Shown here one piece after another: positions 9,072-62,155 of a DNA stretch of 64,000 nt (its first letter is position 1; every line of letters begins with the position of its first letter). The notes under the pieces are model-generated. The model was not told the DNA's origin. It was given only the letters and a program-made list of their open reading frames with translations, and searched no databases. This DNA is from an uncultured Anaerolineae bacterium (GTDB lineage Bacteria; Chloroflexota; Anaerolineae; Aggregatilineales; Phototrophicaceae): positions 1 through 64,000 of the forward strand of contig CALDYP010000004.1 in assembly GCA_937944445.1 (NCBI GenBank), in the 5' to 3' direction. The position numbers and the translations under genes were made by a program.

Positions 9072-10322
9072 ATGAACGACCTTATGGAAAAGGTTCGTCA
9101 GTTAGAGCGTAAAAACGCAATCCTCGTCAAACTGGCCGAGATCAGCGCATCGCTGAACTCGCAGTATGACCTGCAGCCCTTGTTACAGTACATCATGCAG
9201 GTAGCGGTTGAAATTACGGATTGTGAGGCAGCATCCGTTCTGTTGTGGGACAGCCAGCGCCAAGAGCTGTTCTTTGCGGCGTCTACGACGGTGGACAACA
9301 ACAACGAGCTGGTTGGCAGGGCTGTCCCGATGGAGAGCATCGCGGGGACGATCCTGCGCCAAAATGAAATCGTCATCGTCAACGACACAAGGCGCGATCA
9401 ACGTCACTACGACCAAGTGGACAAAGAAATTGCTTTCCAGACGCGCTCGCTGTTGGGCGTGCCGATGCGTTATAAAGACCGCGTCATCGGCGTGCTGGAG
9501 GCGCTTAACAAGCGCACGCTCCCGTGGACGAAAGACGACAGCGATTACCTGATGACGTTAGCTGCGCAGGCTGCCGTGGCCATTCAAGGCGCGCAGCTCG
9601 TGATGGAGCTAAAACGCGCCAATGATGAGCTGAGCGAGGTAGATAAGCTCAAGAACGATTTCATCGCCATCGCCTCACACGAGCTGCGAACGCCGCTGGG
9701 CGTCATCATGGGCTATGCCAGCTTCTTGCAAGACAGCGACAGCCCCGACACGCAAGAACATGCCACCAAAGTGCTGGAGAGCGCCCTGCGGCTGCGCAAG
9801 ATCATCGAGGACATGGTGAACCTGCGCTACCTCAAACAAAAGCAGAGCGACTTGCACCGAGAAGAGACCGACGTCCGCACGATCCTAGACTTGGTGCGCA
9901 TCGAGATCGACGCTGTGTTTGACGTGAGCCATCACGATTTTCAGATTAAATACCCGGCTGAGGGGCTGCGCGTCTACGTCGACCAAACGCGCTTGTCGAT
10001 GGCGTTGATGAGCTATGTGCACAACGCCTTCACCTTTACCCCTCAAGGCGGCAAGATCACGATTGACGTGCAAGCGACCCCCTCAGAGGTGCGTTTCCGT
10101 GTTGCTGATACCGGGATCGGCATCGAGAGCGACAAGCTAGAGCGCATCTTTGAAGAGTTCTACCAAGTTGAAGATCACATGATCCGCCACCATGGGGGGC
10201 TTGGCATTGGGCTGAGCATCGCCCGCGCGATTGCCACCGCCCACCGTGGCCGTGCATGGGCTGAAAGCGCTGGCCTCGGCAAAGGGGCGACGTTCTATCT
10301 CTCGCTGCCGCGGCTAACTTAG
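9072..10322 (+). CDS. GAF-domain sensor histidine kinase
   Basis: A 416-residue soluble kinase: short coiled coil (1-28), GAF domain (about 30-175), a second coiled coil, HisKA with the phosphoacceptor His203 in [10 protein letters not shown], and a HATPase domain (about 295-412) with N-box-like HNAFTF, G1 DTGIGI and G2 GLGIGLSI. It should autophosphorylate in response to an intracellular signal; there is no transmembrane segment. Its first gene neighbour downstream is the convergent FHA gene, whose end overlaps by nine bases, so no cognate regulator is adjacent. The OmpR-type regulator at 17395 is the nearest candidate. The start is preceded by an operator-like palindrome. Confidence 0.88.
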   Translation: MNDLMEKVRQLERKNAILVKLAEISASLNSQYDLQPLLQYIMQVAVEITDCEAASVLLWDSQRQELFFAASTTVDNNNELVGRAVPMESIAGTILRQNEIVIVNDTRRDQRHYDQVDKEIAFQTRSLLGVPMRYKDRVIGVLEALNKRTLPWTKDDSDYLMTLAAQAAVAIQGAQLVMELKRANDELSEVDKLKNDFIAIASHELRTPLGVIMGYASFLQDSDSPDTQEHATKVLESALRLRKIIEDMVNLRYLKQKQSDLHREETDVRTILDLVRIEIDAVFDVSHHDFQIKYPAEGLRVYVDQTRLSMALMSYVHNAFTFTPQGGKITIDVQATPSEVRFRVADTGIGIESDKLERIFEEFYQVEDHMIRHHGGLGIGLSIARAIATAHRGRAWAESAGLGKGATFYLSLPRLT

Positions 10323-38787: not shown

Positions 38788-38822
38788 CTTAGATCGTCTA
38801 TTTTATCTTGAGGAATACCCTG

Positions 38823-40040
38823 ATGTCTGATTTGCCGATGGATCACGCGCCCACTGTTCATGAGCAAGGCCTAAAGCTGCTGACTGTCATCAACGAGGCG
38901 ATCATCAGCGAATCGACAGAGTTAGGGCTGCTCAAGGCGGTGGCGCAGCCGCTGCAAACGTTCGCCAATGCCGATCACGTCGGCATCGTCCGCATTCACG
39001 AAGTGAGCGGCGCAGCAACCCTCGTCGCCGAGCACCCCCCCACGCCGATGCTCGGCACAGAACTTCCCGATGACAGCACAAACCCGACGGCCATCCTGCG
39101 CCGCACCCGCGGCGACCTATTGATTGACGACGTCACCACCAGCCCCATCATCAGCGATGACCTACGGCAGATTCTGCTGCAAGTGGGCGCTAGGAGCCTG
39201 CTGCTGCTGCCCCTTGTGGACGCACAAAACGCCCTGATAGGCTCCATCGGGTTCGATTTCGGCGCACCCCATGCGCTGCCGGACTCCACCCGCTTAGACT
39301 ACCTGCGCGTGGTCATCGTACAAGTGGCCGCTGCTGTGATGCGCTTGCGCTTACAGGTGCAGAGCCAACGCCATGCTGATCAGCTGCAAAAGATCAACGC
39401 CTACGCCCGCCGCATTCCCGCCGATACCGAGCTGGCGCAGGCGCTGCAAATCGTGCTGGACTCAGCGCGGGCGCTGGAACCGTTCGACTACGTTGCGCTG
39501 TATCTGCGGCGCGGTGACCAAGCGCACCTGCAGCAGGCCGCGCTGTGGCGTGATGGCGCTGCTACGATCACCCCAGAGGGGCGGCGCAGCGAGGACGGCA
39601 GCAGCGCCCCCTATCATGAAGCCTTCTTGGACGCCGCGCCCATCATCGTTCACGACTTGGCCACTGACCCCGCGTGGAACTACCCACAGGCAGCAGGCAT
39701 CCGCTCACTGGTTGCTTATCCGCTCATCATGCAAACGGGGCCGTTTGGTGTGCTGGAGTTGGGCAGTGCGCAGCCGCATGCCTACAACTCGGCGGCCTTC
39801 AACATCTTTCAGCAGTTCGCCAACGAAACGGCGCTGCTCCTGTCAAACGTGCTGGCTTATCGCAGAGCGCAGCGCCAACTGAGTGTGAAGGCGCGCGCCG
39901 CGGAGTTAACCATGACCCTCCAGCAGCAAACAGAGATGGATGCGATCATCAAGACAACGCTGCAAGCCCTGACAACCGCATTCGGCGCGTCACGCGCGCG
40001 CATTCGCCTTGGCGTCACCCCTGATGAGAAGAAAGGCTGA
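38823..40040 (+). CDS. Soluble tandem-GAF sensor without transmitter
   Basis: A 405-residue cytosolic protein with two GAF domains (about 10-170 and 190-355) linked by a coiled coil, then a third coiled coil and the beginning of another GAF-like domain that stops at ASRARIRLG. There is no HisKA, HATPase, GGDEF or DNA-binding output. It is the first of five such proteins encoded in a row. The ATG at 38823 is supported by GAGGAA eight bases ahead; a TTG upstream is possible. The next gene starts four bases after its stop. Probably delivers a ligand or redox signal to the downstream kinase through protein contact, which is an inference. Confidence 0.78.
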   Translation: MSDLPMDHAPTVHEQGLKLLTVINEAIISESTELGLLKAVAQPLQTFANADHVGIVRIHEVSGAATLVAEHPPTPMLGTELPDDSTNPTAILRRTRGDLLIDDVTTSPIISDDLRQILLQVGARSLLLLPLVDAQNALIGSIGFDFGAPHALPDSTRLDYLRVVIVQVAAAVMRLRLQVQSQRHADQLQKINAYARRIPADTELAQALQIVLDSARALEPFDYVALYLRRGDQAHLQQAALWRDGAATITPEGRRSEDGSSAPYHEAFLDAAPIIVHDLATDPAWNYPQAAGIRSLVAYPLIMQTGPFGVLELGSAQPHAYNSAAFNIFQQFANETALLLSNVLAYRRAQRQLSVKARAAELTMTLQQQTEMDAIIKTTLQALTTAFGASRARIRLGVTPDEKKG

Positions 40041-40044
40041 TCCT

Positions 40045-41730
40045 GTGATCCGCAGAATAGAGGGCGTGTTCGAATTTCCTCAGTACGCGAACTTAGTCGA
40101 GCGCAACCGCGCGCGCTACATCGCTATCTTGCAAATCGCGGCGGTGATCGTCACGTTCGCTTACGTGCTCTTCGTCCCAGAGTGGGTGCTGCCCAGCGCT
40201 GCCCCGGATGCGCCGCGCGTCATCGCGTTGGTCGCTTTGGCAGAGCGGCCCGACCTGCTGATCGTGTACGGCGGCGTTGTTGTGCTGGCGCTTGCAACGC
40301 TGGCGCTGGTTCATGTCAAGCGCCTCATGGCGGCAGGGATCGCGCTGGTGCTGAGCGTCTTGTTGGTAACAGGCATTTTGGTGCTCGTCACGCCCGATCA
40401 AAGTTTTGACAACGTCACATTTGTGACCGCGTTTCCGCTTGCTGCCTTTTTGGGGTTCTTGCTCATCAACCAGTGGGGCGGCATCTTCACCATCATCTTC
40501 TGCACCATGCTGTTGATCGCTGACCCGGGAACCCTCTCCGTTGAGGAGATACTCGGCTCGGTCTTGGTTCTAACCGGAACCGGGGTGATCGGCTTCTTCT
40601 ATTTGCGCTTGTTCGATGTAGCCCAACTCGAAGAGCAGCGCGCAGTCAGTGGCGAACGCACTCGCTTTGCTGAGATCATCAGCGAGCTGACCCGCCTGAG
40701 CAGCGAAACCCGCTCGCTCAATCAGACGCTGACCGACAGCCTAAAGCTCATTCAAACGAATTACTCGCAGTTTGAATCCGCTGCGGTGTATCTCATCGAC
40801 GACAAAGGCCTGTACGCTGAGCTGGCTGAAAGCGTTGGCGTGATGCGCACCAGCGAGCAGGGGCGCTTCACGGTGGGCGATGTGTCGCCGGTGGGGCAGG
40901 CTGCGCTCTCAGGCACAATTCAGACGCGCATCATAGACGGTAACCTTGTGGAGGGGGCCGCGCTGCTGCCCGGCATGCAGTCACAGATCGCCGTGCCGAT
41001 GCACTTCGGCCAGCGCGTTTTGGGCGTGCTCGACTTGCAGAGCAGCCAGCGCAGCCCAAGCAGCGACTTAGCTGACCTCATCACGCTGGCCGATGCGCTG
41101 GCGCTCGTGGTCAACAGTGTGCAGCAGATTGAAGCGGCGCGCGAGCGGCTGAGCGAGAACGTGCGGCTGGCGGAACAAGCGCGCAACGCGCTGACTGAGG
41201 TGCAGCGTTTGAACAGGCGCCTCATCGGGCGGGCTTGGAACGAGTACCTCAAAGAGAAGCGCGAATTTGCCAGCGTGGAGTATGACCCCGCCAGCGGCAC
41301 GCTGACGAGCGCGGATGTGTCGTCCCCGCACATCGACGCAGTTGTTCAGTCCGGGCGACCGCACGCAGCCGATGGGGTGCTGGCCATCCCACTGCGCGCG
41401 CGCGGGCAGGTGCTTGGCGCAATTGAGCTAGAACTGCCGCCTGACGCGGTGATTGACCCAGCGCAGATGGAGCTGGTGAACGAGCTGGCAGACCGCTTCG
41501 GCCTCGCCATCGAGAACACGCGCCTGTTGGAGCAGAGCCAGAGCAGCGCTCAGCGCGAGTCGCTCATCAACGTCATCAGCGCGCGCATTCAAACGACCAC
41601 CAACGTTGAGGCGATGCTGGCTGAGACGGCCCGCAGCCTGAGCGAACTGATGCAGCTAGACCATGTCAGCATCCGCTTAGGCACACCCGATCAACTGCCG
41701 CCCAAGCGGGCGATGGAGGAGATGGCATGA
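40045..41730 (+). CDS. Membrane GAF sensor without transmitter, paralogue 1
   Basis: A 561-residue protein starting at GTG 40045, preceded by GAAAGG. The start is supported by alignment of VIRRIEGVFEF with MLLDRIRALFRL of the paralogue at 43318. About five transmembrane helices (about 25-190) form a sensor module without large outer loops, then a coiled coil, a complete GAF domain (about 225-380), the shared block RLNRRLIGRAWNEYLKEK, a degenerate GAF and an unfinished GAF end DHVSIRLG. No output domain. The preceding stop is four bases away and the next ATG overlaps the stop. It is one of several tandem duplicates feeding, presumably, into the giant kinase. Confidence 0.78.
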   Translation: MIRRIEGVFEFPQYANLVERNRARYIAILQIAAVIVTFAYVLFVPEWVLPSAAPDAPRVIALVALAERPDLLIVYGGVVVLALATLALVHVKRLMAAGIALVLSVLLVTGILVLVTPDQSFDNVTFVTAFPLAAFLGFLLINQWGGIFTIIFCTMLLIADPGTLSVEEILGSVLVLTGTGVIGFFYLRLFDVAQLEEQRAVSGERTRFAEIISELTRLSSETRSLNQTLTDSLKLIQTNYSQFESAAVYLIDDKGLYAELAESVGVMRTSEQGRFTVGDVSPVGQAALSGTIQTRIIDGNLVEGAALLPGMQSQIAVPMHFGQRVLGVLDLQSSQRSPSSDLADLITLADALALVVNSVQQIEAARERLSENVRLAEQARNALTEVQRLNRRLIGRAWNEYLKEKREFASVEYDPASGTLTSADVSSPHIDAVVQSGRPHAADGVLAIPLRARGQVLGAIELELPPDAVIDPAQMELVNELADRFGLAIENTRLLEQSQSSAQRESLINVISARIQTTTNVEAMLAETARSLSELMQLDHVSIRLGTPDQLPPKRAMEEMA

Positions 41731-43328
41731 ACCAGCGTCGTCTTTCTACGTCACAAGTTTTCGTCAACTACGTGGATGAGCTGCGGCGCGTGCTCATCGG
41801 CGTGCTGATGCTGATGGCGCTCATCATCAACGGGTTTTTGCTGCTGGTGGAGGTTGCTGAGCAGCGCCCGATCACGCCCATCCTGCCGCTGTTCTTGGGG
41901 CTTGTCGGCTTGTCGCTGCTGGCGGTCGTTCGGCGCTTTGCCGTGCAGTTGACCAGCGACGTGATCATGCTGATCTTCACGCTGCGGATTACGAGCCTGC
42001 TGCTGCTGCCATCTGTGCCGTTCGCGGTGATCGTTGTGTTGGTGGCATCCCTAATAAACAGCCGCTGGGCATATGCTGTCATCCTAGTCGCAGCGCCAGC
42101 CCAAGTCTTTTGGTCAGAGCTGAACCGCGCTCAACCAGAAGATGGGAACGCCCTGCTCGGCACAGCGCTGATCTTGATCGTCGCGGCTGTCTCTTCGCTG
42201 GTGCTGCGCGTCTTCCGCGAACGGCTAGACGTGTTCCTTGAGAGCGCCCGCCAAACGAGCAGCATGCTCCAGCGCAGCCTCCAGCTCAGCAGCAGCCTTG
42301 CCGGCTACACCGACGAGGCCAGCCTTGCGCAGTACACCGCGCGCGGCTTGCAGAAGCAGTTCGACCTGCTGCGCGTGGGGGTCTATCTTGTTCAGCAGTC
42401 CAACGAGGCAGCGCTGATCGCTGCGACGGATGAAAAACTGCAAGGCCAACGCCTGCCGATCAACACGCGCAGCACAGTTGGGCGGGCGTTGCTTTCGGGC
42501 GAGACGATCACGCTGCGCTTGGACACGCTGCGCGCGGCTGACCCGTCCTTGCGGGTGGGCGGGGCACAGGTGCAGGCCGTCATCCCGCTATTCGATCGAG
42601 ATCGCGTGGTCGGCGCGCTCGACCTCTACAGCGCTGACCCCAACGCTTTCACGGTGGACGCCCTCAACACGCTGAAGGTTGTAGCGTTGGGCTTCTCGCA
42701 AGCGCTGCGCCAGACGCGCACCCTCGCCGAGCAGCAGACGACGCTCCAGCAGATGCGGCGCGTGTCTCAAGAGAACGAGGTCAACCTGCGCGAGGTTGAA
42801 CGACTCAGCCGCCAGTTGACCCGCCAGATTTGGTCAGAATACGTGCGGACAGGGGGGGCAGTGACTGGGGTAAAATTGGAACCGAACGGCTTCTCACCGG
42901 GCGCAGCGTGGACGCCGCCCATGGTGCAAGCGGTGCAGGGCCGTCGTCCCGTCTCAGCAGAAGCGGAGGAGGGTGGGCGCTGGGTGGCTGTGCCGATTGA
43001 ACTGCGTGGCGAGGTGATTGGCGCGCTGCAAGTCAAACTGGCGGATGCGAGCCACGTCAACGAGACGACCGACCTGCTGCGCACCGTGTCAGAGCGTCTC
43101 GCCATCAGCCTTGAGAACGCGCGTCTGTTTGAAGAAGCCCAAGCCGCCACCATACAGGAACAGCGCGTCAACGAGATCATCGCGGAGCTGCAAGCAGGCG
43201 ACTCGCTCGAGGCGATGCTCCAACGCACGCTGGAGGGTCTAGCGGACGCGCTCGGCACGTCTGACCTCTCCATCCGCTTAGGCAACGTGGCGATGCAAGG
43301 GACGAACGGAGGCTCACATGCTTCTTGA
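41727..43328 (+). CDS. Membrane GAF sensor without transmitter, paralogue 2
   Basis: A 533-residue protein laid out as its neighbours: about five transmembrane helices (about 20-155), coiled coil, GAF domain (about 180-330), the shared block VERLSRQLTRQIWSEYVRTG, a degenerate GAF (VPIELRGEVIGALQVKL, LAISLENARLFEEAQ), and a truncated end SDLSIRLG. It starts with an ATGA overlap to the previous gene and overlaps the next by 11 bases, so translation is coupled. No catalytic or output domain. The membrane part has no known ligand motif. Confidence 0.78.
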   Translation: MNQRRLSTSQVFVNYVDELRRVLIGVLMLMALIINGFLLLVEVAEQRPITPILPLFLGLVGLSLLAVVRRFAVQLTSDVIMLIFTLRITSLLLLPSVPFAVIVVLVASLINSRWAYAVILVAAPAQVFWSELNRAQPEDGNALLGTALILIVAAVSSLVLRVFRERLDVFLESARQTSSMLQRSLQLSSSLAGYTDEASLAQYTARGLQKQFDLLRVGVYLVQQSNEAALIAATDEKLQGQRLPINTRSTVGRALLSGETITLRLDTLRAADPSLRVGGAQVQAVIPLFDRDRVVGALDLYSADPNAFTVDALNTLKVVALGFSQALRQTRTLAEQQTTLQQMRRVSQENEVNLREVERLSRQLTRQIWSEYVRTGGAVTGVKLEPNGFSPGAAWTPPMVQAVQGRRPVSAEAEEGGRWVAVPIELRGEVIGALQVKLADASHVNETTDLLRTVSERLAISLENARLFEEAQAATIQEQRVNEIIAELQAGDSLEAMLQRTLEGLADALGTSDLSIRLGNVAMQGTNGGSHAS

Positions 43329-44964
43329 TCGCATTCGTGCGCTGTTCCGCCTGCAATACGACTACCGCGACCCGTATCAACTGACCATCGCGCGTGACTT
43401 GCTGCGCTACACTATCGCGCTGTCGGTGGTCTTGGGGCTGGGGCTGGTGCTGCCCCTTGTCGTCGGCTTTTTCGAGCCGACGCCGGCGGTTGTGTTGAGC
43501 ATCGTCGTCGATTACGTCCTCATTGTGCTAATCGGCTACATGGTGCAGACGGGGCGCGTGTTCATCGGGCGCAACCTGCTGTTGGCGCTGGTTGTCTTTG
43601 CGACGCTCAACGCGGCGTTCCAAATTGAGCTAACCCTTGCCACGCTGCTCAGCTTCCTGCTGCCGATCGCTGTGGCGGGCCTGCTGTCGTCGCGCAACGT
43701 CACGGTCGGCGTCACGCTGCTGACGATGGGGGTGTTCACTTACGTCATCCTGTCGCAGCCGGTGATCGACCTCACCATCAACGCAGACAACCGTCTTACA
43801 ACGCTGTTCTCGGTGCTGCTGATCGTCGTCTTGATCGGGCAGTTCGCCGTCATCTTTGGCGCGGCGCAGCAGCGCATCGCGCAGGCGTTCAGCCGCGACA
43901 CGCGCAGCTTGATGAGGTCGTTAGAGTTGGTCGAACTCGACACGCTCAACATCGACGAACCAACGTTGATCGCCAAGAGCCTGCGCAGCCTAAAATCAGG
44001 CTTTGACCGTGTACAGGTCTACCTTGTGGAGCAGAGCACCGGCAGCCGTGCCACGCCGTACTATGAGTCGCTGGATGCAACCGTTCTGACAGGTGAGCCG
44101 GTTGATCTGTCGGCTGCTTCCGCCGTCAGCGAGGCCATCCGAACGGGCGAGGTGCTGACCATCACCCCTGACAGCGGCGATCAGCGTCGGCGTCAACTCG
44201 CTGCAGGGATGCAGATGGCCGTCCTCGTGCCGCTTCTCGCCGATGGCAAAGTGCTGGGGGTATTCGACTTCCAACTGAGCACGGTCACCACTTTTTCCGA
44301 AGCGCAGATGGCCGTGTTCCAATCGTATGGCCGACGGTTGGGGCTGGCGCTGGCGCGCGTGCGGCTGCTCAACCAGCTTTACGCCGATGTGCAGCTTCAG
44401 CAGTCCGTGATCGCTGGGCTGCGTCGGCGTATTGAATCGCTAGAGCGCGAAACACGCCGTGAGGTGGACGCCAGCACGTGGCAGGTCTACTTCCAAGAGG
44501 TGGCCAAAGGCGCATTGGGTTACGACATCGGATCAGGGGCAGCGATGATGGCGCTGGATCAACTGCCAGCCACCACTTACGCCAGCCTGCACGCTGGCCA
44601 AATTGTCATGGAGCCGAACGGGGACAAGACGCTGGTCATGGTTCCGATCCGCCTGCGCGACGTGCTGCTGGGGGCGCTCTCTTTCCGCATCGCTGGCAGC
44701 CAAGAGCTGAACCAGCGCCAGCAAGAGCTGATCCAAGACGTCGTAGATCGTCTGGCGCTGGCGCTGGAAAACCGCCGCCTGCTGCAACAAAGCCAGAGCC
44801 AAGCCCAACGCGAGGCCAAAGCAAGCGAGGTGGCGCGTCTTCTGTTTAGCGAGACGGATCTCACCGCGCTGCTGAGCGTCGCAGCGGGGCAGTTCAACGA
44901 GGCGCTGGGCGCGGTTAACACGTCGGTGCGAGTGCTCAGCTTGGAAGGAGGGGAAAGTTCATGA
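43318..44964 (+). CDS. Membrane GAF sensor without transmitter, paralogue 3
   Basis: A 548-residue member of the same series: five to six membrane helices (about 25-190), coiled coil, GAF domain (about 205-350), a block related to the others (IESLERETRREVDASTWQVYFQEV), a degenerate GAF, and an unfinished end VNTSVRVLS. It overlaps both neighbours (11 bp before, 4 bp after). The N-terminus MLLDRIRALFRL matches that of paralogue 1. Its GAF cavity could bind a small ligand, but no specific one is implied. Confidence 0.78.
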   Translation: MLLDRIRALFRLQYDYRDPYQLTIARDLLRYTIALSVVLGLGLVLPLVVGFFEPTPAVVLSIVVDYVLIVLIGYMVQTGRVFIGRNLLLALVVFATLNAAFQIELTLATLLSFLLPIAVAGLLSSRNVTVGVTLLTMGVFTYVILSQPVIDLTINADNRLTTLFSVLLIVVLIGQFAVIFGAAQQRIAQAFSRDTRSLMRSLELVELDTLNIDEPTLIAKSLRSLKSGFDRVQVYLVEQSTGSRATPYYESLDATVLTGEPVDLSAASAVSEAIRTGEVLTITPDSGDQRRRQLAAGMQMAVLVPLLADGKVLGVFDFQLSTVTTFSEAQMAVFQSYGRRLGLALARVRLLNQLYADVQLQQSVIAGLRRRIESLERETRREVDASTWQVYFQEVAKGALGYDIGSGAAMMALDQLPATTYASLHAGQIVMEPNGDKTLVMVPIRLRDVLLGALSFRIAGSQELNQRQQELIQDVVDRLALALENRRLLQQSQSQAQREAKASEVARLLFSETDLTALLSVAAGQFNEALGAVNTSVRVLSLEGGESS

Positions 44965-47255
44965 ACACGCAAGCGCGCTTCTTCCCGCTCTGGAGCCAGT
45001 TTTTGCTGGTGCTGGGGGTCGCTGTCTTGATCCCCGTCGGTATAATGCTGCTGGTGGTGGTGGACGCCACCAACCGCCTCAATGAGCGTAATCTCTCAGC
45101 GCTGGTGGAGCAGGTCGGGCGCTATCGTGAGTATCTCATCCAGACGGACTTTGACGCAGCGCTGCGGCTGCTCGACAGCGTTGAGGACAATGCCCCCGTC
45201 TACACGCTGGTAGTGTCGGCGGCGCGCAATCTCGCCTTGCCCGGCACGACGCCTGAGACGCGCCAGAGCTTGACCGACCGCACCAACGCTGATCTGCGCC
45301 GCGCCTTTTTTGGCATTGATCAACGCCTTGTAGACAGCTACTGGCTGCTGAGCACGCGCGGCGAGGTGCTGCTCTCCGCGACGAACAGCAACCGCACGCT
45401 GCCCTTCAACGCCCTTCAGCCCAACGAGGAAACGTCTGAAGCCTTTCTGCGCGCTCGTGACGCATCGCTGAGCACGACCACACGCTTGCTCATCCTCACC
45501 AACCGCGGCGGCCAGCCCAACTTTGAGGTGGTGCTCATCTTGCGTGACGTAGTCGGGATCACCGTCGGGTATCTCGTGCTGGACTTGGACTTGGGGCAGA
45601 TCGTGCTGCGCCACCTCGGAACAGAGGTAGGCCTGCCGCTTTACAGCTTTGTTGTGCTGCCAGACGGCAGAACAGCCTTGAGCCTAGCGGAAACACAGCG
45701 CCAGAACCTCATAGACGTGCGCACGCCCGCCGTGCAGCGCGCGTTGGAGGGAACCACCAGCGGCGTTCTCGCCTATGACACCAGCCGACAGGGCGAAACA
45801 CGCCAGCTCGTCGGCTATTATTCGTTCATTCGCGTGCTTGATCAAACGTTGGGCTTCATCACTGAGGCGGACAGCGGTTTGATCATCACCGAGCGGTTGG
45901 AGTACTTTTCCGCGGTGGGCGTCCCGCTGTTGTTGGTCATATCGCTGTTGATTGCGGGCTTAGTGCTGCTGCTGTCGCAGTCGATCGTGCCACCCGTCAA
46001 GCAACTGCGCACGGCCATACAAGCCGCCACCGGTGGCAATTTCAACGCTCCGCTGCCCGCCACCACACGCCCCGACGAACTCGGCGAGCTGAACAGCAGT
46101 TTCGCCGTCATGCGCGATCAGGTGCAGCGCGTGTTCAGCGACCTGAAGACCCAAGCCGCTAAGAGCAGCCGCGAGGTGCAGCTCACGCAGGAAATCGCGC
46201 AAGTGGCGCTCGACGTGCGCGATATCGACGTCCTGATGACGCGCATCGTCACCCTCATCACCGACAACTTCCCCGTGATCTACCACGCGCAGGTGTTCCT
46301 GATCGATCCAAGCGGGCGGTACGCTGTGCTGCGCGCGTCAACAGGGCGCGCCGGGCAAGAATTGCTGCGGCGCGGCCACCGTTTGGAAGTCGGCAGCGTG
46401 TCCGTCATTGGCCAAGTGACTGAGCAGGGGCAGATCGTCGTGGTGCGCGACATCGGCGCGAGCGCCGTCCACCGTCAGAATGAGTTCTTGCCTGAGACAC
46501 AGGCCGAGCTGGCGATCCCGTTGAAATTAGAAAATCGAGTGATTGGCGCGCTCGACGTGCAGAGCAAAGAGCGCGACAGCTTTTCAGAAGAGTTGATCGC
46601 CACGCTGCAAACCCTCGCCAACCAGATCACGATTGCGATTGAAAACGCGCAGTTGAACGAGAAATCGCAGCAGCTGCTGCGCACAGTCGAACAAGAGACG
46701 CGCCAGCGCACTCAGCGTTCATGGCAGGAGCTGTTCGCGCTGCTGCGCGCGCCCATGCTGAGCGCCAGCGCTGGCAATCAAACGGGCTACGACACGAGCG
46801 ACCTGCGCGAGGCGGTGATCCGCTCTGGCCGAACCGCCGTCGGCACCCGCACCGACTACCGCACGATCCCCGTCGTTGTGCCGATCAAGCTGCGCGGCCT
46901 CGTCGTGGGCGTGGTTGAGCTAGAGCTGCGTGAGGTCGATTTCAGCTATGGCAAGGTGCTGCTAGCGGAAGAACTGGTGAGCCGCCTTGCCATCAGCCTC
47001 GACAACGCCCGCCTGTTCCTAGAGAACGCACGCAACGCCGAGCGCGAGGCGTTCGTCAGCAATGTGGGCGACCTGCTCAGCGCAGAAAACACCGTCAAAG
47101 GCATTTTCGAAACGGCCATCCGTGAATTGAGCGCCACCCTCGGCACGCCCCAGATTGGCGTGCGGCTCAACACGAACGGCGCGGACAACGGTTACACACT
47201 GGCCGAAGACGTCATACTCGTTTCATCGTCCGATTCAGACAGGAGGCTCAGCTAG
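44961..47255 (+). CDS. Transmembrane sensor with dCache-like domain, HAMP and GAF domains
   Basis: A 764-residue sensor: transmembrane segment about 12-34, extracellular Cache-like domain about 35-305, transmembrane about 315-338, HAMP about 338-395 (PPVKQLRTAIQAATGGNFNAPLP), coiled coil, GAF domain about 410-575 (IYHAQVFLIDPSGRYAVLRASTG...), the block TRQRTQRSWQELFALL, a degenerate GAF, and an unfinished tail TPQIGVRLN. Again there is no kinase domain. Its stop is followed directly by the start of the giant kinase (TAG-ATG). Its periplasmic-type domain probably detects an external ligand. It resembles the kinase's N-terminal half, so the two may have arisen by duplication. Confidence 0.8.
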   Translation: MNTQARFFPLWSQFLLVLGVAVLIPVGIMLLVVVDATNRLNERNLSALVEQVGRYREYLIQTDFDAALRLLDSVEDNAPVYTLVVSAARNLALPGTTPETRQSLTDRTNADLRRAFFGIDQRLVDSYWLLSTRGEVLLSATNSNRTLPFNALQPNEETSEAFLRARDASLSTTTRLLILTNRGGQPNFEVVLILRDVVGITVGYLVLDLDLGQIVLRHLGTEVGLPLYSFVVLPDGRTALSLAETQRQNLIDVRTPAVQRALEGTTSGVLAYDTSRQGETRQLVGYYSFIRVLDQTLGFITEADSGLIITERLEYFSAVGVPLLLVISLLIAGLVLLLSQSIVPPVKQLRTAIQAATGGNFNAPLPATTRPDELGELNSSFAVMRDQVQRVFSDLKTQAAKSSREVQLTQEIAQVALDVRDIDVLMTRIVTLITDNFPVIYHAQVFLIDPSGRYAVLRASTGRAGQELLRRGHRLEVGSVSVIGQVTEQGQIVVVRDIGASAVHRQNEFLPETQAELAIPLKLENRVIGALDVQSKERDSFSEELIATLQTLANQITIAIENAQLNEKSQQLLRTVEQETRQRTQRSWQELFALLRAPMLSASAGNQTGYDTSDLREAVIRSGRTAVGTRTDYRTIPVVVPIKLRGLVVGVVELELREVDFSYGKVLLAEELVSRLAISLDNARLFLENARNAEREAFVSNVGDLLSAENTVKGIFETAIRELSATLGTPQIGVRLNTNGADNGYTLAEDVILVSSSDSDRRLS

Positions 47256-54281
<7,026 letters not shown>

Positions 54282-54319
54282 TGAGGGCGGGCTACTCACC
54301 CGCAGACGCCATTTCTGTT

Positions 54320-54346
54320 CTGGGGCGGCTCACGAGTCGCCCCCAG
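54320..54346 (+). terminator. Hairpin after the kinase gene, possible partial terminator
   Basis: CTGGGGCG pairs with CGCCCCCAG (one bulge) around a short loop, followed by TTTGTTAGCTTT. It lies in the 110-bp gap between the giant kinase and the threonine synthase-receiver gene. If active it would lower, not abolish, expression of the fusion gene, since no separate promoter is evident. Confidence 0.5.
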
Positions 54347-54391
54347 TTTGTTAGCTTTATCGGTATTCGGGCAACAAGTCGAAGGACATCC

Positions 54392-56062
54392 ATGATTCGC
54401 CACACCACCAAGACCATTTTCGTTGAGTGCACCAACTGTCAAACCATCACCGACTTTCACGACTTCCACGGGAAATGCCCCGCGTGTGGTGAGACGATCT
54501 GTGAGGCGCGCTATGACCTGCTGGGGCTGGACGTCAAGCAGTGGCTGCACGAGATCAGCCAGCGCCCGGCCTCGCTGTGGCGCTATCATGAGGTGCTGCC
54601 AGTCTTCAACCCTGAGAACATCGTCACGATGAACGAGGGGGGGACGCCGCTGCTGCGCAGCACGAGCCTCGCCGCCAGCTTGGGCTTGAAGAACCTGTTC
54701 CTCAAAGATGAGCGGCAAGGCCCCACCAGCAGCTTCAAAGATCGGCAGGCGACGGTGGCGATCACTGCGATGAAAGAGCGCGGCATCGATGAGGTGGTGG
54801 TGGCCAGCACGGGCAACGTGGCCATCGCCTACGGGGCATACTGTGCCCGCGCGGGCATCAAGCTGTGGGCCTTCTTCCCGATGCTCGCCCCCAACGAGAA
54901 GATGCGCGAGACGGCGGTCTACGGCGCGGAGGTCATCAAGACGACCGGCACGTATGACCAAACGAAGCAGCTCGCCGCCAACTTCGCCGCCACCAAGAAC
55001 ATCTTCCTCGACCGCGGCATCAAGAGTGTGGCCGCCATCGAGGCCATGAAGACGATGGCCTATGAGATGGCCGAACAGCTGGGGCGGATGCAGTATGCAG
55101 GGCGGCAGTGGGCTACGCCCGATTGGTTCTTGCAAGCGGTGAGCGGCGGGCTGGGGCCGCTGGGCGTGGCGAAGGGCTTCCGCGAGCTGCGCGACTTCGG
55201 CCTTGTCGATCGCCTGCCGGCTTTCGGCCTGATCCAGAGCGAGGGGTGCGCCCCGATGGTGCGGGCGTTCGAGCGCGGCCAGCGCGTCGCCACGCCGATT
55301 GAGGAAGAGAACACGGTCATCGCCACCTTGGCCACCGGCAACCCGGGCCGCGCCTATGAGATCCTCTACGACTATGTGCAGGAGAACGGCGGCCACTTTG
55401 AAGCCGCCAGCGACGAGGAGGCCTTCAACGCGATTCGCGTCGTGGCGCGCTATGAGGGCATCTCAGTCGAGCCTGCTACGGGGGTGGTGTTCGCTGGGCT
55501 GTTCAAAATGGTGCAGAAAGGCCTCATCAAGCCGGATGAGGTGGTGGTGGTCAACGTGAGCGGCCACACCCTGCCCGTCGAGCGCGACATCCTCGGCGAG
55601 CGCTGGCAGAAAACAGTGGACATGTCGACGGCGTCGCGCACGCCCTCCGTGCCGCTGGAGCGCTTCTCAAAAGTGGTCAGCAAGTTGGAGCGCCTGCGCC
55701 GCGTGATCTTGATCGAGGACAACGCCGCGTCTGCCAATTTGATGTCGCGCATCCTTGAGAGCCGCCAAAACTGCGAGGTCTACCTTGCGACGGATGGACG
55801 AAGCGGCCTTGAGATGGCGCATGAGGTGCGGCCTGACCTCATCATCACGGATCTGATGATGCCGGTCATGGATGGGTTCGCGGTCGTAGAGGCGATCAAA
55901 GCCGAGCCGACGCTGGCCAACGTGCCGATCATCGTCGTCAGCGCGAAAGACCTCAGCAAGCGCGAGATGGACTATCTGCAAGCCAACACCGACATGATCC
56001 TGCAAAAAGGCTCATTCGTAGACGACGAGTTCATGGAACGCCTGCTCGAGCGCCTGAACTAG
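54392..56062 (+). CDS. thrC: Threonine synthase fused to a receiver domain
   Basis: A 556-residue fusion. Residues 1-420 are threonine synthase: N-terminal zinc-ribbon-like Cys13, Cys16, Cys29 and Cys32, PLP lysine K116 in TSSFKDRQ, VVVASTGNVAIAYGAYCARAG, the glycine-rich phosphate loop VSGGLGPLG and a C-terminal GHTLP. It should convert O-phosphohomoserine to threonine. Residues about 434-554 are a receiver domain with the acidic Glu-Asp pair (LIEDN), phosphoacceptor D487 in ITDLMMPVMDG, VVSAK and Lys in ILQKGS, so it can probably be phosphorylated. The single open frame crosses the junction without a frameshift. ATG 54392 (after AAGGAC) is preferred over a start at 54278 that overlaps the kinase stop and would include the hairpin. 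The link to a kinase operon suggests direct phospho-control of the enzyme. Confidence 0.88.
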   Translation: MIRHTTKTIFVECTNCQTITDFHDFHGKCPACGETICEARYDLLGLDVKQWLHEISQRPASLWRYHEVLPVFNPENIVTMNEGGTPLLRSTSLAASLGLKNLFLKDERQGPTSSFKDRQATVAITAMKERGIDEVVVASTGNVAIAYGAYCARAGIKLWAFFPMLAPNEKMRETAVYGAEVIKTTGTYDQTKQLAANFAATKNIFLDRGIKSVAAIEAMKTMAYEMAEQLGRMQYAGRQWATPDWFLQAVSGGLGPLGVAKGFRELRDFGLVDRLPAFGLIQSEGCAPMVRAFERGQRVATPIEEENTVIATLATGNPGRAYEILYDYVQENGGHFEAASDEEAFNAIRVVARYEGISVEPATGVVFAGLFKMVQKGLIKPDEVVVVNVSGHTLPVERDILGERWQKTVDMSTASRTPSVPLERFSKVVSKLERLRRVILIEDNAASANLMSRILESRQNCEVYLATDGRSGLEMAHEVRPDLIITDLMMPVMDGFAVVEAIKAEPTLANVPIIVVSAKDLSKREMDYLQANTDMILQKGSFVDDEFMERLLERLN

Positions 56063-56326: not shown

Positions 56327-56674
56327 TCAAGTTCTGTTGTTGTTTGAATTCTCAGCAAGCATCGCTTCAATCGCTTGCTGCAACTGAGGCAGCATCATGA
56401 CTGCCTCCCACACGATAGCTAAGTCAACACGATCATAGTTGTGGGTGAGAAAGTCACGAAACCCCTTGACCGCTCGCCAGTCGATGTCTGGCTGCGTGGC
56501 GAGCAGTTCATCAGGCAGTCGCTTAGCGATTTCACCGATCACTTGATACTGACGAATCACCGCATCTTGGACGACAAAATCGCTGTCAAATGCGGCTTTG
56601 CCACCGCGCGTGGATTGAGCGATACGGTTGGCATACTCACGCATATCGAGCAGATAGTCATGTGCAGTCTTCAT
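56327..56674 (-). CDS. hepT: HepT-like ribonuclease toxin (DUF86)
   Basis: A 115-residue HEPN-type toxin of the DUF86/HepT family. The R-x4-H-x-Y catalytic motif is intact in FRDFLTHNYDRVD; the Tyr is the residue AMPylated by the MntA antitoxin in studied systems. The protein should act as an RNase when freed. Its ATG overlaps the stop of the antitoxin gene by four bases. It is on the minus strand, downstream of mntA and upstream of the MT-A70 remnant. Confidence 0.88.
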   Translation of the reverse strand: MKTAHDYLLDMREYANRIAQSTRGGKAAFDSDFVVQDAVIRQYQVIGEIAKRLPDELLATQPDIDWRAVKGFRDFLTHNYDRVDLAIVWEAVMMLPQLQQAIEAMLAENSNNNRT

Positions 56675-56982
56675 AAGGTTACAGCGTCGGCCTGTGCGCG
56701 CTGCAAAAAGCGCTGGTCTGCTACGCCGTCGGTGATCAAATTGACCTGACAGCCTAACAGTTCTTGCAAGTCTAACCAGAGGCCGACCACGTCAAAAACG
56801 TTGGTTCCAGCGTTGGCCGTCACCAACAAATCCACGTCGCTTTGTGGGGTGGCTTCGCCGCGCGCGACGCTGCCGAACACGCGCACGTTCGAGACGCCAT
56901 AGCGCGCCGCCAGCGCGAGGATCTCGGCGCGGCGCGCCCGCAGCGCTTCAAGGGTCACAGGTGGGGTGAGCGTGTCGGTCAT
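56671..56982 (-). CDS. mntA: MntA-like minimal nucleotidyltransferase antitoxin
   Basis: A 103-residue nucleotidyltransferase with the motif Gly-Ser-Val-Ala-Arg-Gly-Glu-x4-Ser-Asp-Val-Asp-Leu (about 36-51), including the two metal-binding aspartates. In known HepT/MntA pairs, it adds AMP groups to the toxin and so blocks it. It is the first gene of the pair and overlaps hepT by four bases. Its start region was duplicated at the MT-A70 remnant. Start at 56982, with family homology starting around residue 10. Confidence 0.87.
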   Translation of the reverse strand: MTDTLTPPVTLEALRARRAEILALAARYGVSNVRVFGSVARGEATPQSDVDLLVTANAGTNVFDVVGLWLDLQELLGCQVNLITDGVADQRFLQRAQADAVTL

Positions 56983-58159: not shown

Positions 58160-61100
58160 TCATGCCAGCCGCAGCCGCTGCGCGAGTGGGCGCGCCCGCG
58201 CGGGCAGCAGCTTGGCGAACATGGCGCGTTCGGCCTCGTCCAGCGGGCGCAGCGCGATGAGCGTCACCCCGTAGACCCCCGCGCCCACCAGCGCCCCCAA
58301 CCACGGTGAGATGGGCATCAGCCCCCAGCCGACCAGCAGCATCGCGCCGCCCGCCAGCGCGGGCCGCCACAGCAGACCGCCCCACGCAATGCGCGCGCCC
58401 AGCCCGCGCTCCATCAACAGCCCAAACGGGATGAACAGCACCAGCTCGCTGGCAATCGTCGTGACCGCCGCCGCGATGTAGCCGTACTCCGGGATGAGCA
58501 GGACGTTCATCCCGATGTTGAAGGCCACCGCCGCGACGAAGGCCCGCAGGATGTGCCGCTGCAGGTCTAAAGCCACCAGCGCGTACTGCGTCAGGCTGTT
58601 CATCCAGCCGATGGGAATGCTCCAGATCATCAACACCAGCGCCCCCGCGCCCTCCGGCAGGTACTGCGCCCCGCCGATGAACTCCGTCAGCGGGACGGCC
58701 AGCAGCGTAAAGCCCGCCGCCAGCGGCACGGCCAGCGTGAACATCAACTTGACGCCGAAGGTGTAGGTGCGCCGCAGCGCGGCCAAGTCCTCCGTCGCCT
58801 GCCGTGACATAACCGGCAGCAGCGCCTGTGTGAAGAACGACGGCACGATGTTGATCGCGCTCAGCCAGCGGTAGGCGATGCTGTAACGCGCGACCAGCTC
58901 CGCGCCTTTGAGCGCCTCCAAGATCACGACGTCGACTTGAAAGAAGATCGTCGCTAGGAAGTGGTTGAGCAGCAGCGCCCAACTGTCGCGGATCATCTGG
59001 CGCATGAGCGGCAGCTCTGGCCGCCACGTGGCCAACCGCCCGACCAGCGCCCGCCCCGTGTAGGCCAAGATCGCGAGCGTCAGCAGGTTGTTTGCCACGC
59101 TCACCGCCGCCAGCCCGACGATCCCTGCCCCCGCTAGCAGCACGATCACCCCGAACACCACCTTGTTGATCGTCGTGATCGTGGCGATGGCGGCGGGCTT
59201 CTCCACCTGCTCATGGGCATAGAACAGCGAGCTGATGCCCTTGCTCAGGCTGGCGGGGAACAAGCCCACGTACAGCAGCGCCAGCGTCAGCAGCGCCGTC
59301 TCATCCAGCGGCGGCGTGACGGTGGCCTGACGGATTGCTACGAAGCCCACCACCAGCCCTACGCCGACCACCGCCAGCGCCAGCCGCAGCAGCGTCACGT
59401 TGTAGAGCAGCCGCCCGCTCTGCGCTTTGTCGCGGCTCACCGCGCGGATCAGGTACAAATCCAGCCCGAAGTTGGTGAAGATGTCGAACCAGACGAACAC
59501 CACCACCAGATAGTAATACGTCCCGACCTCTTGGGGCGTCAGCACGCGCAGCATGACCAGCAGGAACGCGAAGTCGATCCCTTTGTTGAACAGGTTCAAC
59601 ACAATCGGGGCGACGCTGTTGCGGGCGACCCGCGCGCTCGTGCTTTGGGCGGCCTCGTGCCCCACCAGCCCGCGCCACACGCTGACGCCGATCAGCAGGG
59701 TGATGAGCGCCGCGCTGATGGCCGTGCCGAACACCCCAACCTGAAAGCTCGTCGGGCTGTAGACCATGCGCAGCGTCCACACGCCCGCTGGGATCGCCAC
59801 GCCTTGAAACAGCCCATTCACGACCTGCACGGGCACGAGTGTCTCGGCGCTCTCTGACGCGCCGATGGGCCGCAGGAAGGCGCGCCAGCCCTCGGCGTAG
59901 GCCTCGCTGACGATCAGCCAGCCGTCCGTCAGCGCGGAAACGTCCAATAGGCGCTCGCGGGCGGTGTCGCTGCGCAGCGTGGCCGTGCCAGAGGAGGCCA
60001 GCGCGTCTAGCTCGGCGTTGGTTAGGGCGTCCCCGCTGGCGAGGCGCGCGTTGAGCGCCGGGCTGTCACAGCACACCATGTAGCGCGGCAGCGCGTCCGC
60101 CACGCGGTAGATCGTCTGAGACGGGTCGGCGTACACTGCGGTGAAGCGCTGCGGGTCGCGCTGCATAAGCGCCTGCGCCGCCTCAGAGCGGGTCTGCGTG
60201 ACGATGAACGCGACGTTCAAACTGCGCAAGCGTGGGCTGCTCAGCGCGTCCCACACGTCAAAGTCGGGGTAGCTGGTGTAGAGCGGCGCGACGCGGTTGA
60301 AGTCGAGCTGCACCTGTGGGGCCAGCCCACGCAGGTAGTCCACTGTGGCGCGCGGGATGATGCTGTCGTAGCCGCGCACGTCGTAGAGGCCGTGCGGCCA
60401 CGTGCTGTTGGCTTGCAGGTTGGCGGGCTGTGCGGGGTCATCTAGCGTGAGGAAGCGCGCCTGCCCCTGCGCTTGCAAGAACTGCACCGAGGGTGGCACG
60501 AAGTCCAGCAGGGCGGGGTCAGAGGCGGGGTTGAAGCCCCACGACGCGGCCATCAGGTCAACGGCGATCACCACGCTGACGGCCACGCCGGCCCACGCCG
60601 TGCGCCAGCGGCCGGCCAACCAGCGCAGCGCCAAGCCGCTGACTGCCAGCGTGAGGCCGAAGATGAAGGCCTGCCCTGCCGTGTAGCTGAAGAACAGCTC
60701 GGCGTTGAGGAAGGCGCGGTCAGCGTTGGTCAGGCCGCGGAAGGCGCGTTCGACGCCGTCGGCCAGCGCGGGGTAGGCGATGCGCGCCACCCCAAGCCCG
60801 ACGATCAGCGCCGCCCCCGCCGCCGCCAGCGCCTCGCTCAGGCGTTTGCCCCAGCGTCGATCTTGCCCCGCCAGCCGGTCGAAGCCCAGCGCGGCCAAGA
60901 CCGCCACGCAAACCGTCAGCGCGTAGATCCAGCGAAAGGGCGAGTTCAATTGGTTGATGCCGGGCAGCGCGAAGATCAGCGCGTAGGTCGGCAGCCCGAA
61001 CATGAAGCTCAGCGCCAACGCGCCCAAGCTGCCGAAGATGGCTTGCAAGCCGCGCTGTGCCCCGCCAAACGCCGCCAGCGCCAGCGCCAGCGGCAGCAGC

Positions 61101-62155
61101 CCCAAGTAGAGCGCCCCCTCCACGTAGTTCTTGATGCCCCATTCAGTGTGGAAGGACGGGCTGCCGTCCAGCGTGACCCACTGGCCGCTGAACCAGTCGA
61201 AGATCGTGTGATGGGCGGGGCTGCCGTAAACGTTGGGCATGAGGAATTGCAGCACGTCGCGCGGCGGGTGGGCGTAGCTCAGGACGGTCTCTAAGCTGGC
61301 GCGTTCGGCTCGCCAGTTGACGCGCACGAAGTCGTACAGCGGGATCAACTGGACGGCCCCCAGCCCCAGCCCCAGCGCCACCATCGCCAGCAGCAGCCCG
61401 CCCGTCTGGAGCAGCCAGCGGGCGTCTCGCTGTTGGGTGAACGTCAGCAGCAGCCGCCCGGCTGCGTACCAGCCCGCGATGAACAGCGTGTAGATCGTGA
61501 TCTCGGCGTGGCCAGCCAGCACGTTCAGCCCCAGCGCCCCTGCGCCGACGATCAGCGACCCGAGCGCGCGCTGGCCGCGCACCAGCCGCTCGATCATCCA
61601 CAGCAGCAGCGGCAGCCACGCCACCCCACCGATCATCATCGGAAAGACCGCGCTAGCGATCATGAAGCCGCCCAACTGGTAGACGATGCCGGCGATCAGG
61701 CTCGCCACGCGCGACGCGCCCAACGCCCGCGCAAAGCCCATCATGAACGCCCCGGCCAGCCACAAGTTGACCACCGTAAACCAGCCGTAAGCCGCCGGCA
61801 AGTCCAGCGCGTAGTAGAGGCCGCTCAGCGGGTAGAGGCCGCTGTGCTGCCCTGCCGCGAGGAACGGGATGCCCGCGAACTGGTGCGGGTTCCACAGCGG
61901 GATTTCGCCGAGGGCGAGCTGGCTGCGCAGGAACTGCTTCCACGGGTAGTTTTGCAGCACTAGGTCGGATACGAGGTGGTTGTGCGGCACGCTCGGCGCG
62001 CGCGCCACCTCGCGGTAGGTGGCGTAAGGCTCGTACTGGTAGAGGTTCTCCGTCGGCAGCAGCGTTCGCCCGCCGAGCGTCTGCTGCCAGAACATCACCA
62101 GCGGCAGCAGGAAGAGCACCCCAATCAAGAGTCCATCAGGAAGATAACGCCTCAT
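58160..62155 (-). CDS. YfhO-like membrane protein fused to a Wzx-type flippase
   Basis: A 1331-residue membrane protein in one open frame. Residues 1 to about 835 are YfhO-like: early TLLPTENLYQYEPY, WNPHQFAGIPFLAAGQHSGLYPLSGLYY, a dozen or more membrane helices and a large extracytoplasmic domain about 560-790. Residues about 840-1325 form a polysaccharide flippase (MATE/MOP-like): NSVAPIVLNLFNKGIDFAFLLVMLRVLTPQEVGTYYYLVV and about 12-14 helices. YfhO proteins act in lipoteichoic-acid or glycan modification, so the fusion couples a glycosyltransferase-like protein with lipid-linked-sugar flipping. It starts the operon with GT2 downstream. Fusion is well supported: no stop or frame change lies at the joint. 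Confidence 0.85.
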   Translation of the reverse strand: MRRYLPDGLLIGVLFLLPLVMFWQQTLGGRTLLPTENLYQYEPYATYREVARAPSVPHNHLVSDLVLQNYPWKQFLRSQLALGEIPLWNPHQFAGIPFLAAGQHSGLYPLSGLYYALDLPAAYGWFTVVNLWLAGAFMMGFARALGASRVASLIAGIVYQLGGFMIASAVFPMMIGGVAWLPLLLWMIERLVRGQRALGSLIVGAGALGLNVLAGHAEITIYTLFIAGWYAAGRLLLTFTQQRDARWLLQTGGLLLAMVALGLGLGAVQLIPLYDFVRVNWRAERASLETVLSYAHPPRDVLQFLMPNVYGSPAHHTIFDWFSGQWVTLDGSPSFHTEWGIKNYVEGALYLGLLPLALALAAFGGAQRGLQAIFGSLGALALSFMFGLPTYALIFALPGINQLNSPFRWIYALTVCVAVLAALGFDRLAGQDRRWGKRLSEALAAAGAALIVGLGVARIAYPALADGVERAFRGLTNADRAFLNAELFFSYTAGQAFIFGLTLAVSGLALRWLAGRWRTAWAGVAVSVVIAVDLMAASWGFNPASDPALLDFVPPSVQFLQAQGQARFLTLDDPAQPANLQANSTWPHGLYDVRGYDSIIPRATVDYLRGLAPQVQLDFNRVAPLYTSYPDFDVWDALSSPRLRSLNVAFIVTQTRSEAAQALMQRDPQRFTAVYADPSQTIYRVADALPRYMVCCDSPALNARLASGDALTNAELDALASSGTATLRSDTARERLLDVSALTDGWLIVSEAYAEGWRAFLRPIGASESAETLVPVQVVNGLFQGVAIPAGVWTLRMVYSPTSFQVGVFGTAISAALITLLIGVSVWRGLVGHEAAQSTSARVARNSVAPIVLNLFNKGIDFAFLLVMLRVLTPQEVGTYYYLVVVFVWFDIFTNFGLDLYLIRAVSRDKAQSGRLLYNVTLLRLALAVVGVGLVVGFVAIRQATVTPPLDETALLTLALLYVGLFPASLSKGISSLFYAHEQVEKPAAIATITTINKVVFGVIVLLAGAGIVGLAAVSVANNLLTLAILAYTGRALVGRLATWRPELPLMRQMIRDSWALLLNHFLATIFFQVDVVILEALKGAELVARYSIAYRWLSAINIVPSFFTQALLPVMSRQATEDLAALRRTYTFGVKLMFTLAVPLAAGFTLLAVPLTEFIGGAQYLPEGAGALVLMIWSIPIGWMNSLTQYALVALDLQRHILRAFVAAVAFNIGMNVLLIPEYGYIAAAVTTIASELVLFIPFGLLMERGLGARIAWGGLLWRPALAGGAMLLVGWGLMPISPWLGALVGAGVYGVTLIALRPLDEAERAMFAKLLPARARPLAQRLRLA

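Follow-up and report, generated by a model that had tools for sequence, protein, structure and literature searches.

A receiver domain fused to a threonine synthase-like PLP enzyme in Chloroflexota: a putative two-component response regulator with a metabolic output

Most response regulators have DNA, second messengers or protein partners as their targets. The solved structures nearest to the protein described here are those of threonine synthase (ThrC; TIGR00260) from T. thermophilus (1uim), Aquifex (2zsj) and M. tuberculosis (2d1f). Like our protein, these are PLP enzymes of fold-type II with the PLP-binding lysine in an SFKDR motif and with an STGN motif. A second relative is cysteate synthase (TIGR03844; CapA2, 9k3c), one aligned member of which has similar GxKxVA...GM blocks and a similar QAVxSGxG-like loop at places where ThrC differs from our protein. 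In cyanobacteria a second, subfunctionalised synthase/deaminase ThrC has been described; this bifunctional Microcystis protein is a paralogue of ThrC that has altered activity and occurs alongside a retained canonical ThrC (PMC12172450). Receivers (REC) fused to metabolic enzymes have also been reported already, and the archaeal KaiC-REC and glycosyltransferase-REC proteins resemble the case at hand in carrying a receiver on an enzyme domain with a kinase expected as partner (PMC5847659). Here, we analyze a gene in the window, the whole stretch of 64,000 nucleotides under study (contig CALDYP010000004.1 of assembly GCA_937944445.1, from an uncultured Anaerolineae bacterium), that joins a PLP-dependent (PALP) domain to a receiver. 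The first-pass annotation had rated a receiver on a primary biosynthetic enzyme as very unusual. The architecture is indeed unusual, but it is not unprecedented in kind. No description of a PALP-REC fusion was found in the literature searched; the main response-regulator reviews lay outside that search and an earlier mention is possible.

The fusion protein and its kinase neighbourhood

The fusion gene (54392-56062, forward strand, as are all features below unless stated) is translated from the ATG at 54392 into 556 residues plus stop, with no internal stops. There is an in-frame alternative start, a GTG at 54278, but orthologue lengths favour the ATG. From N- to C-terminus the protein is composed of a CxxC zinc ribbon, the PALP domain, a linker of about 35 residues and a complete receiver. 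The ribbon cysteines C13, C16, C29 and C32 (54428-54487) are kept in all orthologues that cover them (42/42 and 46/46). Pfam places PALP (PF00291) at residues 78-391 (54623-55564) with an E value of 2.7e-68, and the fold of this domain matches ThrC in the PDB. The PLP-binding lysine K116 in SSFKDRQ (54737-54739) is conserved in 47/47 fused orthologues, and translation and alignment thus agree with the earlier description of both lysine and cysteines. Response_reg (PF00072) is detected at residues 438-540 with an E value of 2.3e-20, within a receiver that spans residues 438-555 (55703-56056).

This receiver was said to be complete, and translation and Pfam confirm it: D443, D487, the VVSAK motif (515-519) with S517, and K539 are all there. 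D443, D487 and K539 are invariant in the 47 aligned fused orthologues, where position 442 is always D or E and position 517 always T or S. D487 (55850-55852) is the predicted phospho-acceptor. A degenerate (pseudo) receiver can be rejected, since the acceptor residues are conserved. In all 47 orthologues K539 is followed by glycine at position 540, where proline is the usual residue. The AlphaFold2 model of the fusion has a mean pLDDT of 85 and a pTM of 0.71. Most of the enzyme scores above 83 per ten-residue block. For most of the receiver the values range from 80 to 92, and its last helix is weaker. Both domains are therefore confident, in contrast to the linker between them (403-433; 55598-55690), which stays below 50. 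Hence, the model does not fix how the two domains sit relative to each other, nor does it show a confident domain-domain interface. The length of the linker is constrained, with 33-40 residues over the aligned segment in 47 sequences.

A hybrid histidine kinase gene precedes the fusion, as had been noted before. It encodes a GAF-repeat protein of 2341 aa (47256-54281) in which Pfam finds GAF, HisKA, HATPase and two C-terminal receivers, and the ATG of the fusion lies 110 bases past its stop. This arrangement recurs: in 45 of 55 neighbourhoods the gene immediately before the fusion, on the same strand, encodes a histidine kinase with an H-box motif. By eye, the first of the two kinase receivers has R in place of the conserved K (YLQRPF). 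The last one keeps the K and is 38% identical to the receiver of the fusion over 95 aa. The switching had earlier been ascribed to a phosphorelay. This is more than needed, as direct transfer from HisKA to the receiver is enough and Pfam finds no HPt domain in the partner kinase. Near-overlapping genes (38808-47255) that lead up to the kinase gene encode five GAF/HAMP proteins, and Pfam detects no kinase domain in them. A further kinase of the GAF-HisKA-HATPase type (9072-10322) is 69.5% identical over 410 aa to the kinase whose gene, in many relatives, comes immediately after PALP-REC, and in the window this orthologue is situated some 44 kb from the fusion.

The gap between kinase and fusion was also analyzed for RNA elements. 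Rfam at gathering thresholds detected no regulatory RNA in 36000-58000, and 54279-54391 does not fold better than its shuffles; on both grounds a regulatory RNA upstream of the fusion is rejected. A terminator-like hairpin of nine pairs lies at 54322-54343 and may be due to chance (3 such sites against 2.0 expected). Just 3' of the fusion, on the reverse strand, a HepT-like RNase and a nucleotidyltransferase (56327-56982) likely form a HEPN-MNT toxin-antitoxin pair. Also on the reverse strand is a gene for a 1331-aa membrane protein (58160-62155), in which a YfhO-like part is joined to a polysaccharide flippase (Polysacc_synt) part.

Distribution of the fusion and co-occurrence with a permease

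Full-length fused orthologues of about 49-72% identity, which we term class 1, are present in most of 61 relatives, with some copies fragmentary. A second class (43-47% identity) occurs in many of the 61; its members mostly have about 700 aa and two C-terminal receivers. Fifteen loci, L139:7285-9405 and 14 others, represent this second paralogue class, mostly as PALP-REC-REC. Class-2 loci commonly contain CheY-like receivers and a double-GNAT protein. Beyond the relatives, the subfamily was found in 42 of 400 sampled Chloroflexota. All 58 matches at E<=1e-100 in this sample are in open frames that measure 549 aa or more; their E values are about 1e-168 or better, with nothing between there and the threshold. 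Presence of the receiver was read directly in the orthologues that were fetched and aligned and was inferred from frame length for the others. An assembly error had been named as a finding that would undo the proposal. Such an error, like a frameshift, is ruled out by many independent fused orthologues; several of them lie on single-contig assemblies, some being single-contig chromosomes, and misassembly is therefore excluded.

In the cyanobacterial phylum sample, 4 out of 244 genomes carry the same enzyme subfamily. Three of these four proteins have about 400 aa and no receiver (L209:1477-2691, L210:1474-2736 and L211:1474-2670), and the fourth sits at a contig end. One receiver-free orthologue, seen in L212, is located downstream of an MFS transporter gene on the same strand. 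At E<=1e-90 no member was detected in the Micromonospora, Myxococcales, Planctomycetota and Paenibacillus phylum samples, searches that had no positive control. A whole-protein scan of the genome contigs returned mostly unrelated receivers, because one search pattern was derived from the receiver.

Two arrangements are common downstream of the class-1 fusion: a GAF kinase plus an EamA-type permease, or the permease immediately after the fusion. Of the first 20 class-1 loci, 14 have such a permease close to the fusion, as do 10 of the second set. In 61 genomes, with presence and absence assigned by reading two search tables, 46 have both the class-1 fusion and the permease, 3 only the fusion, 1 only the permease and 11 neither (Fisher p ~1e-8, uncorrected for shared ancestry). 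The permease tracks the class-1 fusion even where both are unlinked, as in the genome of the window, in which the permease gene is on contig C22 away from the fusion. Genomes with class 2 only (G038, G045 and G051) are without it, and hence the permease goes with class 1.

Active site and identity of the PLP enzyme

The active site was compared in an alignment of the 47 fused proteins, to which the unfused cyanobacterial ones were also aligned. K116, S139, T140, N142 and K170 are invariant in the fused proteins, and only S and T occur at position 390. Thus, the features shared with ThrC, the SFKDR lysine and the STGN asparagine, are kept in 47/47. An inactive PLP domain is unsupported, as catalytic lysine, asparagine and S/T390 are all retained. 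The ThrC-specific parts are changed. In every orthologue the block NSVNPxRxEGQKT is replaced by a DxGxK...MKT-like sequence and the loop VGNAGN by VSGGxGPxG. In the window protein these sites read DRGIKSVAAIEAMKT (residues 207-221; 55010-55054) and VSGGLGPLG (250-258; 55139-55165). The equivalents of Thermus ThrC N154, S155, R160, N188 and N191, several of which presumably bind the substrate phosphate, are replaced in 47/47. Glycine is found throughout at those of S155, N188 and N191, and A, S, G or C at that of R160. The ThrC-specific blocks are also replaced in the aligned unfused cyanobacterial orthologues. The ThrC encoded elsewhere in the same genome keeps NSVNPxRxEGQKT and the N188/N191 equivalents.

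It had been proposed that threonine synthesis, or use of O-phosphohomoserine, is the step under phosphorylation control. There are arguments for a real threonine synthase here, or for a synthase/deaminase paralogue with both functions such as the cyanobacterial second ThrC, whose action on O-phosphohomoserine or threonine would be switched by the receiver. The fusion scores 179.3 against the NCBI threonine synthase equivalog TIGR00260, 12 bits above the cut-off of 167.1, and ThrC structures rank first in Foldseek with the AlphaFold2 model. However, the fusion remains below the cut-off of NF006050 (274.9 against 303). The genome of the window encodes another ThrC, which reaches 254.5 bits with TIGR00260 (cut-off 167.1) and adjoins the homoserine kinase gene thrB, and hence the fusion is neither the sole ThrC of the genome nor linked to thrB/hom. 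Relatives that lack the fusion still carry ThrC-type proteins, as found in the search of the 61. In the tree, the fused and the unfused cyanobacterial proteins form a group apart from canonical ThrC with 100/100 support, although the branches there are long. The label of a primary biosynthetic enzyme is unsupported, and we regard a receiver-switched ThrC as unlikely. Since the genome has its own ThrC and the ThrC blocks are replaced, the fused protein probably represents a distinct PLP enzyme subfamily and not a threonine synthase, despite passing TIGR00260. A name given by family score, here threonine synthase, can hide a clearly different active site.

The sequences at the two replaced sites appear closer to cysteate synthase than to ThrC, as judged from one aligned member. 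At the block site this authentic cysteate synthase (L220) has the strings GGAKNVARRDGM and EGGAKNVARRDGMATT, and at the loop site it reads QAVGSGTG. Compared with this one aligned protein, the fusion has a similar GxKxVA...GM/AM pattern and a QAV followed by a glycine-rich loop, but the rest of the active site differs. The fusion obtains 119.5 bits with TIGR03844 (cut-off 324.9), against 462.4 for L220 and 59.1 for the genome's own ThrC. In Foldseek, CapA2 (9k3c) appears at rank 16, with a lower rmsd of 3.4.

A proposed role and comparison with known systems

We think it rather likely that the fusion is a two-component response regulator with an amino-acid-metabolising PLP enzyme as output. 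The GAF-rich kinase would phosphorylate D487, and the phosphorylated receiver could then, via the linker, change how active the PLP enzyme is or how it assembles. The kinase would in this way probably control the amino-acid reaction directly and not through genes. The enzyme itself probably catalyses beta-replacement or elimination, with a serine-type amino acid or, more generally, some amino acid other than phosphohomoserine as its substrate. The EamA/DMT-type permease might move product or substrate across the membrane. A more specific version, in which the enzyme is switched by the GAF-rich kinase and its amino-acid-derived product is exported by the dedicated EamA permease as a module used throughout the phylum, appears possible but doubtful. 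If true, what the two-component system puts out would be a small molecule, synthesised by the response regulator itself and then secreted.

The flow of information may also be reversed. The PLP domain would then be a ligand-sensing input that holds an amino acid as aldimine and tunes the receiver as phosphate sink or kinase partner, with catalysis being secondary. A C-terminal REC without other output fits this idea, as do the two receivers and neighbouring CheY-like proteins of class 2, and REC-associated domains can act as inputs (PMC5847659). However, the catalytic set of the PLP domain is fully conserved, the receiver-free cyanobacterial orthologues share the same active site and the co-occurring permease suggests real catalysis, which makes a sensor role improbable. 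That the receiver is only a tag for docking or localisation, to the kinase or to a ParA-positioned cluster, with turnover unaffected, seems improbable too: other families do have a ParA/MinD-type ATPase gene between GAF proteins and kinase, at 8 of their 20 loci, and the linker is without a confident model and the interface not evident, but a tag would not need all phospho-acceptor residues conserved in 47/47.

Returning to the response regulator with enzymatic output, the receiver is apparently wired straight to a PLP enzyme of amino-acid metabolism, and its wide occurrence in Chloroflexota shows that this is no local accident. Enzyme, partner kinase and permease are defined well enough for direct testing. 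The relation to the described systems can be put as follows. ThrC proteins are the best PDB matches, and the fusion shares 29% identity with the ThrC encoded elsewhere in its genome and 33% with that of Thermus. Unlike ThrC, it has NSVNPxRxEGQKT and VGNAGN replaced, carries a receiver and does not occur with thrB. It differs from cysteate synthase by the attached receiver, an identity of 25% and a score far under the family cut-off, and it keeps SFKDR and EGGTPL where cysteate synthase has SFKET and HGSSAP. In contrast to the Microcystis second ThrC (PMC12172450), the Chloroflexota protein is fused to a receiver. Finally, the archaeal REC-enzymes are narrowly distributed within a family or genus (PMC5847659), whereas the Chloroflexota fusion extends over many families and has a PLP enzyme as the partner of its receiver.
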